Part shown: one piece after another, positions 32,305 through 60,650 of the stretch
Layout: every line of letters begins with the position of its first letter
Position numbering within the stretch: the first letter of the stretch is position 1
Origin: Rhodospirillales bacterium
Lineage (GTDB): Bacteria; Pseudomonadota; Alphaproteobacteria; Rhodospirillales; JASLQF01
Direction of reading: 5' to 3'
Assembly (NCBI GenBank): GCA_030744625.1
Contig: JASLQF010000001.1
Coordinates: forward strand, 1-64,000
Length of the DNA: 64,000 nucleotides
The notes under the pieces: generated by a model
Told to the model about the DNA's origin: nothing
What the model saw: the letters and a program-made list of their open reading frames with translations, nothing else
Databases searched by the model: none
Position numbers and translations under genes: made by a program

Positions 32305-33473
32305 TGGCCGGCCGCGTTTTCCTCTACGTGCAGCACCTGCTCGGCATCGGCCACCTGCAGCGGGCGGCCCGTCTGGCCAAGGCCATGGCCGCCGCCGGGC
32401 TCGACGTCGACTTGGTATCCGGCGGCGGCGCAGTACCCTTCCTCGACACCGGAGGCGCCGCCCTCTGCCAGTTGCCTCCCCTCAAGGCCGGCGCCGGCGG
32501 TTTCGGCGACCTGGTCGACGAGGCCGGCCAGCCCGCCGGCGAGGCATTGATGGAAGAGCGGCGGCGGCGCCTTTTGGCTTTCTTCGGCGAACGCCGCCCC
32601 GATGCCGTGATCGTCGAGACGTTCCCCTTCGGCCGCCGCCAGATGCGCTTCGAGGTGCTGGCCTTCCTGGAGGCGGCGCGCCGCGCCGATCCCCGGCCCC
32701 TGGTGATTTCCTCGGTGCGCGATATCCTGCAGGCCAAGCGCAAGCCGGGACGCGACGCCGAAGCCGCCGATTGGGCCGAGACCTATTTCGACTTCGTGCT
32801 GGTGCACGGCGACGCGCGCTTCGCCGCCTTCGAGGAAACCTTCCCCGAGGCGGCACGCATCGCCGGGAAACTTCATTACACTGGCCTCATCGCCAATGCG
32901 CCGGCGGCGACCGGGGAAGCGGGGAGCGGTGAAATCCTGGTCTCGGCCGGGGGCGGCGCCGTCGGCGCCCGCTTGTTGCGAACGGCGATCGAGGCGCGCC
33001 CGCTTACCCGCTACGACGACGCGCCGTGGCGGCTTCTCGCCGGCCCCAACCTGGAGGCCGGCGTCTTCCAGGAGCTGCGGCGCGACGCCCCCGACGGTGT
33101 CGCCGTCGAGGCCTACCGGCCCGACTTCGCGGCGTTACTCGCCACCTGTGAGGTATCCGTTTCCCAGGGCGGCTACAATACGGTGGCCGACATCCTGGCC
33201 GCCGGGGCGCGCGCCGTCATCGTGCCCTACGGGGCGGACGGCGAGACCGAACAGACCCGGCGCGCCGAACGGCTCGCCGAACGCGGCCTGGCGCACGTGG
33301 TGGACGAGGACGCGCTTGCGCCCCACACCCTGGCCAGGGCGATCGACGCAGCCGCGACCATGACACCGCCCACCACACCCGGCATCGACCTCGATGGCGC
33401 CGCCAAGAGCGCCCGGCTGGTCGCCGCCTGGCTGGCGGCGCGCGACGATAAGGCGGCGCAGGCAAGCCCATGA
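32304..33473 (+). CDS. GT-B/MurG-like predicted glycosyltransferase
   Basis: VFLYVQHLLGIGHLQRAARLAKAMAAAGLDVDLVSGG ... SQGGYNTVADILAAGARAVIVPY; paralogue of 28086-29306. Confidence 0.75.
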   Translation: MAGRVFLYVQHLLGIGHLQRAARLAKAMAAAGLDVDLVSGGGAVPFLDTGGAALCQLPPLKAGAGGFGDLVDEAGQPAGEALMEERRRRLLAFFGERRPDAVIVETFPFGRRQMRFEVLAFLEAARRADPRPLVISSVRDILQAKRKPGRDAEAADWAETYFDFVLVHGDARFAAFEETFPEAARIAGKLHYTGLIANAPAATGEAGSGEILVSAGGGAVGARLLRTAIEARPLTRYDDAPWRLLAGPNLEAGVFQELRRDAPDGVAVEAYRPDFAALLATCEVSVSQGGYNTVADILAAGARAVIVPYGADGETEQTRRAERLAERGLAHVVDEDALAPHTLARAIDAAATMTPPTTPGIDLDGAAKSARLVAAWLAARDDKAAQASP

Positions 33474-40738: not shown

Positions 40739-42244
<1,506 letters not shown>

Positions 42245-58097: not shown

Positions 58098-59219
58098 TTA
58101 GACCAACGACACCTGATTGCCCGGGTGGTGCTCCAGGCGACCCGCCAGTTCCAGTTCCAGCAGGACCATGGACACCACGGCAGGGGAGAAATGGACATTC
58201 CGCATGATCTCGTCAACTAAAAGCGGCGCCGGGCCGAGACTTTTCTCAATGGCGGCGCGCGCCGAGTCGAGCTCGTCGAGGCTCGGCGGTTCGGGGGAAA
58301 GTGTTTTGAAATCAAGGGGTTTTCGCTCACCAAGGGGGCGGCGCAGCATGCCTGCAAGCGCCCCTTTCACGTCTTCGGCCGATTCGACCAGGGTGGCGCC
58401 CTGGCGGATCAGGTCGTTGGGGCCGCGGGCGCGCGGGTCGAGCGGCGAGCCCGGCACCGCGAACACCTCGCGCCCCTGCTCGAGCGCCAGGCGCGCCGTG
58501 ATCAGCGAGCCCGAGCGCCGGCTCGCCTCGACCACGACGACCCCCAGCGCCAGGCCCGAGATCAGGCGGTTGCGCCTGGGGAAGTGGCGCGCCTGGGGCA
58601 CGGTGCCCGGCGCCGTCTCCGAGATCAGCGCGCCCTGCTCGGCGATGGCGTCGTGGAGGGCGGCGTTCTCCTTCGGGTAGACCACGTCGATGCCGCCGGC
58701 CAGGACGGCGATGGTGCCGGTGGCGAGCGCCCCGTCGTGGGCCCTGGCGTCGATGCCGCGGGCCAGCCCGGAGACGACAGCCATGCCCGCCCGACCGAGG
58801 CCGGCGGCGATCTCCTGCGCGAGGCGCCGGCCGTTGAGCGAGGCGTTGCGCGCCCCGACCACGGCGACGGCGGGCATGTCGAGCAGGTGGGCATGGCCGC
58901 GCACGACGATCAGCGGCGGCGCGTCCTCGATGTGCGACAGAAGCGGCGGATAGCCGGGCTCGCCGTTGGCCACCATTCGGGCACCGGCCGCCGCCGCCGC
59001 CGCCATCTCGCGTTCGGCACTCGCCTTGGGGCACACCTTGATGGCCTTGCCGCGGCCGCCGCGCCGCGCCAGGGCGGGCAGCGCGTCGAGCGCGGCGGCG
59101 GCCGAGCCGAAACGCTCCATGATCCGGTAAAACGTGATGGGGCCGACGTTTTCGGATCGGATCAGCCGCAGCCAATCGAGCCTGTCGGCGTCGGAAAGGG
59201 GGCGGCGGGCATCGCTCAT
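58098..59219 (-). CDS. dprA: DNA processing protein DprA
   Basis: PAVAVVGARNASLNGRRLAQEIAAGLGRAGMAVVSGLARGIDARAHDGAL ... FPRRNRLISGLALGVVVVEA; C-terminal WH domain. Confidence 0.95.
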   Translation of the reverse strand: MSDARRPLSDADRLDWLRLIRSENVGPITFYRIMERFGSAAAALDALPALARRGGRGKAIKVCPKASAEREMAAAAAAGARMVANGEPGYPPLLSHIEDAPPLIVVRGHAHLLDMPAVAVVGARNASLNGRRLAQEIAAGLGRAGMAVVSGLARGIDARAHDGALATGTIAVLAGGIDVVYPKENAALHDAIAEQGALISETAPGTVPQARHFPRRNRLISGLALGVVVVEASRRSGSLITARLALEQGREVFAVPGSPLDPRARGPNDLIRQGATLVESAEDVKGALAGMLRRPLGERKPLDFKTLSPEPPSLDELDSARAAIEKSLGPAPLLVDEIMRNVHFSPAVVSMVLLELELAGRLEHHPGNQVSLV

Positions 59220-59312
59220 GGCGGAGCAGCCTGCGGCGCGGGCAACGGGCGCGTCAAGGGCATAGCGTTGATCGATACACGCATAGAAAGAACGGACATC
59301 CGGAATTTTACA

Positions 59313-59343
59313 TTGACAATTACTAAATGTTCTTGTAATGTTC
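59313..59343 (+). promoter_or_regulatory. Sigma70-like promoter overlapped by an alphaproteobacterial LexA (SOS) box
   Basis: TTGACA (59313-59318) N17 TAATGT (59336-59341); GTTC-TTGTAAT-GTTC at 59329-59343. Confidence 0.7.
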
Positions 59344-59446
59344 TATTCGCTTTTGACGGGAAAGTCAACATCAGGTTGTGTGATCGAGAATTCCAGGGCA
59401 GTGCGCAAGAAACACGACGATCAACATAATCCAGTGGAGGTATATA

Positions 59447-59689
59447 TTGGCGATACTGAAAATTCCGGCCAAGCGCTCAAGGGTAAAACCGCGACCGAGC
59501 GACTTCGGGGACCCTTTGGAGATGCCAAATCCCGAACTCGATCCAAAGTCCAAACGAAAGCGAAAGAAACTTGGTGCACCGGGTACTCGTGATCCAATGA
59601 ACACCATGCCACCGGTGCCGGGTACGAGAGATAACATGGACTTCAAGGATGACAGGAGACTCGAGCCTCGGAAGAAATGGAAGGCCTAA
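59447..59689 (+). CDS. Orphan 80-aa basic, proline-rich protein (TTG start)
   Basis: GGAGG-N6-TTG; MAILKIPAKRSRVKPRPSDFGDPLEMPNPELDPKSKRKRKKLGAPGTRDPMNTMPPVPGTRDNMDFKDDRRLEPRKKWKA. Confidence 0.55.
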   Translation: MAILKIPAKRSRVKPRPSDFGDPLEMPNPELDPKSKRKRKKLGAPGTRDPMNTMPPVPGTRDNMDFKDDRRLEPRKKWKA

Positions 59690-59749
59690 GCGTCGGTAGT
59701 TGAGCTTCCGGGCTCGTGCCGCCGTTGGGTCGTAGCCAGGGAAAACGCC

Positions 59750-60007
59750 ATGAAGTGGGTTCTGCTTGTACACCTGATATCCCCGGGGGAACACGTGGAG
59801 AATGAGCCGCTCCCCTTCGAGACTAAGGCCGAGTGCATCGCTACGGGCCAGGCATTCGCCGAGAAGTACCCGGCTTTCGAGTGGTTGGACCGATCCGGCG
59901 AATCGACCCGGATAGAACCCCCCGTCTTTCGCTCCTCCGTGGAATGCGTTTCGGTGGAGGAGTACAAACGGCGCAAGTACGGGGATAACGATGGGAAGCC
60001 CGAGTGA
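59750..60007 (+). CDS. Small hypothetical protein (85 aa)
   Basis: MKWVLLVHLISPGEHVENEPLPFETKAECIATGQAFAEKYPAFEWLDRSGESTRIEPPVF... Confidence 0.55.
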   Translation: MKWVLLVHLISPGEHVENEPLPFETKAECIATGQAFAEKYPAFEWLDRSGESTRIEPPVFRSSVECVSVEEYKRRKYGDNDGKPE

Positions 60008-60020
60008 GCGAATAGGCCCT

Positions 60021-60650
60021 CTAAGACGCCCCTTCGCCGTCCTCCCTGGCCCCGATCCTCGGCTCGGTGCCCTTGAGCAGCCTCCTGATGTTGGCGTGGT
60101 GGCGGACCATGGCGAGGAGTGCTAAGAGCGCCGCGGCGCCCACCGTCTCGCCGCTCAGCCATTGCGCGTAGAAGGGCGCCGCGCCAAGCGCCGCCAGGGC
60201 GGCCAGGGACGAGTAGCGCGCGAGCAAGGCCACGGCGAGCCACGTGGCGCAGGCCAGCAGGCCCACCGGCCAGGCCAGCGCCAGCAGCACGCCGAGCGTC
60301 GTCGCCACCCCCTTGCCGCCCCGAAAGCGCAGCCACACCGGGAAGTCGTGGCCGAGCACGGCGGCGAGGCCGGCAACGGCGGCAATGGCGGCGGCCCCGT
60401 CGCCGCCCCACAGGGCGACGGCGAGGACGGCGGCGGCGCCCTTGGCGGCGTCGAGCACCAGGGTGAGGGCGGCCAGGGCCTTGGCGCCGCTCCTCAGCAC
60501 GTTGGTGGCGCCGATGTTGCCGGAACCGGTGGCGCGGATGTCGCCCCTGCCGGCGAGGCGGGTCAGCACCAGCCCGAACGGGATGGAGCCGAGCCCGTAG
60601 CCAAGCGCCGCCGCCAATCCCCACGCCGCCAGCCCCTCGGGCCCGCCCAC
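60021..60650 (-). CDS. plsY: Glycerol-3-phosphate acyltransferase PlsY
   Basis: [39 protein letters not shown] ... [21 protein letters not shown]. Confidence 0.95.

Follow-up and report, generated by a model that had tools for sequence, protein, structure and literature searches.

The dprA gene lies on the minus strand at positions 58098–59219 of the 64-kb window (the whole stretch of DNA analysed here), confirming the divergent dprA neighbour that had been proposed from the sequence alone. Its 373-residue product, a DNA-processing protein and RecA loader, matches PF02481 (E = 3.7e-72), PF21102, PF17782 and the TIGRFAM dprA model TIGR00732 (229.5 bits over cut-off), and comprises the Rossmann DprA domain together with the N-terminal and winged-helix domains of the DprA set. 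A TTGACG element at 59252–59257 on the same strand, 32 nt before the dprA ATG, forms the −35 element of a putative promoter termed P2. Among 170 dprA upstream regions (90 obtained via whole genomes of the order and 80 from named contigs, with a few genomes in both), the distance from TTGAC to the start codon peaks sharply at 29–33 nt, and it is exactly 32 nt in L053–L059 and L062, L053 being this window. Because TTGAC is preferentially found at this distance across Alphaproteobacteria, P2 is suggested to be a leaderless core promoter, and the dprA mRNA to be leaderless.

Further upstream, at 59329–59343, is a GTTC-N7-GTTC direct repeat, the form of the alphaproteobacterial LexA operator, which reads GTTCTTGTAATGTTC on the plus strand and GAACATTACAAGAAC in the dprA sense; re-reading of the sequence confirmed the box where it had been described. 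The bare pattern is not rare, with 4 matches in the 64-kb window (2.0 expected) and 67 in the 3.2-Mb genome against 73 for a reversed-pattern control. Only an AT-rich core and conservation distinguish the box at 59329–59343 from bare matches. A LexA matrix for which only lexA, recA and imuA promoters were used, from this genome and from its relatives, and no dprA sites, gives it the highest score of the window, in minus-strand orientation. The remaining three window matches (25812, 43779 and 43980), two of which have GC-rich cores, are all outside the top eight matrix scores and are probably chance occurrences. A search of 58900–60300 against Rfam gave no match. The host assembly is 88% complete, in 69 contigs, and the relatives compared are of the same order at closest.

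The genome encodes one lexA (PF01726, above cut-off), whose promoter, TTGACG-N17-TAGAAC with GAACCAAACTAGAAC, carries a box in the same GAAC orientation as the promoter facing dprA described below. A GAAC-form box precedes lexA in all eight genomes with a lexA match (this one and seven relatives), and the relatives share the box found here, with small changes in two of the seven. The recA gene here carries GAACAAACAAAGAAT; the recA start region was examined in six relatives, and five of them have similar forms before recA. On contig C15, an imuA-imuB-dnaE2 operon is preceded by TTGACC-N18-TAGAACAAAATAAGAACATTTAGT; its ImuA was identified from a below-cut-off match of a partial sequence to NF033429, and dnaE2 follows downstream. 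With lexA present, with the same form at lexA, imuA and recA of this genome and with conservation in relatives, the box at 59329–59343 is very probably a site of SOS control by LexA, as had been supposed.

By sequence, the box overlaps a candidate promoter, P1, on the minus strand and facing dprA. P1 has a −35 element TTGACT (59363–59368, 5/6 agreement with consensus) and a −10 element TAGAAC (59340–59345), which overlaps the box and agrees with consensus at only four of six positions. The dprA-facing arrangement, TTGACT-N17-TAGAAC-ATTACAAGAACATTTAGT, is nearly identical to the imuA promoter layout: TTGACC-N18-TAGAACAAAATAAGAACATTTAGT at imuA corresponds to TTGACT-N17-TAGAACATTACAAGAACATTTAGT at dprA, and the two promoters share TAGAACA...AAGAACATTTAGT as well as the −35/−10 arrangement. 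Overlap of box and −10 element is also seen at imuA and lexA. In contrast to the imuA promoter, which is near its own start codon, P1 is 110–129 bp upstream of dprA, where P2 would supply an additional, core promoter. Such a distance implies a long leader needing efficient translation, which counts against the P1 reading. In G088 the P1 leader contains a short ORF, which was dropped as a candidate after inspection by eye because an extra base in G033 shifts its frame.

Upstream of dprA, G088, G097 and G033, which belong to one genus, and G051, which belongs to another, keep the box with position and orientation unchanged; both genera are in the order of the host. In these four genomes and the present one the box-to-dprA distance is 110–129 bp. 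Among the invariant blocks of the five-genome alignment, the longest, TAGAACAT..CA.GAAC, contains the −10 element; TTGACT-N17-TAGAAC recurs unchanged in G051, and G088, G097 and G033 have TTGnnT-N17/18-TAGAAC. The gap between plsY and dprA in these four relatives is only 210–290 bp and does not contain the 80-residue ORF to which the sequence-only reading had assigned the box. Conservation upstream of dprA thus extends to the box but not to the ORF, and that assignment is unsupported, because the conserved box-bearing promoter points towards dprA and because the box persists in relatives without the ORF. The box most likely switches on dprA, on the opposite strand, rather than the small orphan.

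An exact box occurs in 11 of the 170 dprA upstream regions, always within 150 bp of the gene, compared with a mean of 0.5 and a maximum of 3 in shuffled sequences (200 trials); alternative spacer lengths average 2.8 matches in 400 bp. These 11 regions collapse to about seven lineages (one per genus or lineage), and some of the matches, for example L217, which has a GC-rich core, and L101, may be due to chance. The other 159 dprA genes are without the box, among them those of the near relatives G008, G064 and G009 and of near relatives whose plsY-dprA gap is short. Where present, the box is variously placed: besides the P1 position of the five aligned genomes, in G001 it falls within the TTGAAA-N17-TATGAT spacer, with an equivalent location in G048; in G007, whose contig is identical to CALINB010000035, it is immediately upstream of the core promoter P2; and in JAATGN010000048 it spans the P2 −35 element. 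This variety looks like repeated recruitment of dprA to LexA, and we infer that P1 is an inducible addition upstream of the conserved core promoter P2.

On the plus strand, an almost ideal promoter, TTGACA-N17-TAATGT, had been read across the box. Both of its elements are present (59313–59318 and 59336–59341), but TAATGT agrees with TATAAT at only three of six positions. The 59313–59341 promoter is not listed by a consensus promoter scan, and plus-strand TTGACA at such spacing is absent from the box-bearing relatives in the five-genome alignment. Downstream, GGAGG (59436–59440) is followed after 6 nt by a TTG codon at 59447 opening an 80-codon frame to 59689 with an internal PGTRD(P/N)M(N/D) repeat, all as originally described. 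This putative coding sequence (ORF1) would specify a basic orphan protein. An ORF of this length is ordinary in shuffled sequences (P about 0.25); GGAGG combined with an ORF of 75 codons or more is less common there (P about 0.013). Its codon score of −0.53, against +0.2 for dprA and plsY, resembles that of non-coding frames; its Shine-Dalgarno sequence is good, and the two PGTRD copies differ at three bases, all synonymous. No homologue was found in 40 relatives, the genome contigs, viral contigs or phages, and a comparison with 385 genomes of the class gave five weak matches, the chance level at that threshold. These matches were dismissed, the inspected alignments being short or of low complexity, with in-frame stops in two.

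A second plus-strand frame (ORF2, 59750–60007, starting MKWVLLVHLISPGEH) encodes an 85-residue protein and is possibly co-transcribed with ORF1. Searches of both ORFs against Pfam, PHROGs and NCBIfam gave no family match. ORF2 has relatives in G008 (two copies, 46–48% identity) and, more weakly, in G040; they share a conserved C and an RS.VECV motif, and judged by this homology ORF2 is a real gene of a rare small family that has no Pfam model. The two ORFs occupy a low-GC stretch (53% and 59%, compared with 66% for the window) that is absent from the plsY-dprA gap of the relatives, and they are proposed to have been inserted between plsY and P1 specifically in this lineage.

These features bear on what the box controls. 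That it acts on the plus-strand promoter, whose derepression on DNA damage would yield the 80-residue basic protein and perhaps also the 85-residue one, is quite improbable: the perfect TTGACA at 17 nt, the GGAGG-N6-TTG start of an 80-codon frame at a shuffle P of about 0.013, the purely synonymous differences between the PGTRD copies and the homologues of ORF2 speak for it, but the −10 element matches at 3/6 positions, TTGACA is absent from relatives keeping the box, the codon score is like that of non-coding frames, and ORF1 has no homologue beyond chance in the 40 relatives, the 385 genomes of the class, the genome and viral contigs or the phages. Control of divergent promoters by one LexA box, with dprA as its minus-strand and ORF1-ORF2 as its plus-strand target, retains all the dprA-side evidence, gains from the overlap of the box with both candidate promoters and would include a gene, ORF2, that is real by homology; it is unlikely, given the weak and unconserved plus-strand promoter and an ORF1-ORF2 pair that has no second copy for comparison. 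We likewise doubt the fuller form of such a divergent pair, in which conserved SOS induction of dprA would be joined by a basic, disordered protein inserted in this lineage only, which could act at the same single-stranded DNA/RecA step.

A functionless match is consistent with the frequency of GTTC-N7-GTTC, about one per 48 kb, and with a bare pattern no commoner than expected in window or genome, but with the site conserved in two other genera, the pattern enriched upstream of dprA and the matrix score the highest in the window, chance is a highly improbable explanation. The box is, with good confidence, the LexA operator of a second, SOS-inducible dprA promoter, P1.

Under SOS control of P1, LexA bound to GAACATTACAAGAAC across the −10 element would block RNA polymerase in the undamaged cell, and basal dprA expression would come from P2, the apparently leaderless promoter with TTGACG 32 nt before the ATG. 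DprA loads RecA onto incoming single-stranded DNA. On damage, RecA filaments formed on single-stranded DNA would provoke LexA self-cleavage and open P1, and DprA would rise alongside RecA and ImuA-ImuB-DnaE2; the extra DprA could then assist RecA loading on single-stranded DNA, either in recombination repair or in the recombination of incoming DNA. What is observed here are the sequence features, their conservation and their resemblance to other SOS promoters; LexA binding, induction of dprA, the two-promoter logic and the benefit to the cell are predicted from them.

The arrangement agrees with the alphaproteobacterial LexA regulon as represented by Caulobacter and Sinorhizobium, in which the GTTC-N7-GTTC form, the AT-rich core and the −35/−10 overlap are the same as here. 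Dinoroseobacter shibae, of another order, Rhodobacterales, offers a close parallel: it was the only earlier case of predicted LexA control of dprA found in the open-licence papers searched, a scope in which subscription-journal reports may be missed. There, a LexA site is predicted in silico at dprA and recA, so that the dprA promoter has a predicted site as it does here, and a link between SOS and recombination of incoming DNA is proposed (PMC6473078); what differs here is the presence of two candidate dprA promoters and several box placements. Caulobacter SOS genes carry GTTCttgttatGTTC, one base off the dprA box, and dprA goes unmentioned in the consulted text of the paper reporting them (PMC12700426). 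Rhodobacter capsulatus needs DprA for the RecA-mediated uptake of gene-transfer-agent DNA, as cited in PMC9632790 and PMC10883770. If dprA has repeatedly been put under LexA in Rhodospirillales-like bacteria, DNA damage would make the cell more capable of recombining foreign or damaged DNA, and in uncultured lineages SOS would be tied to both horizontal transfer and repair. The differing box placements before dprA provide a ready comparative test of this link between SOS and transfer.

Elsewhere in the genome, the AT-rich GTTC-N7-GTTC sites were rejected as an SOS set because nine of them belong to a dispersed repeat (L033, L038–L040 and L042–L046, at C9:33588, C26:41319, C27:41533, C29:36802, C41:42848, C45:14570, C50:16633, C59:28718 and C62:6289) that has a LexA-like box as its 5′ end; TTGAC adjoins this box in most copies (GTTC-N7-GTTCTTGAC). 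The copy on C29 is a solo gene for a 156-residue Terminase_2 small subunit (PF03592), and the other eight, relics with internal deletions, retain both the boxed promoter end and the 3′ end ATGATGACAAATGATGACAAAATGTCATCATTCG; one copy is immediately upstream of a gene reading as uvrA. Two further LexA-like boxes are found on C69, GTTCGTGTTATGTTC at 33097 (L047), preceding a gene for a small membrane protein with no family assigned, and GTTCTTGAAATGTTC at 42209 (L048), 24 bp upstream of a PA0069-family radical SAM gene.
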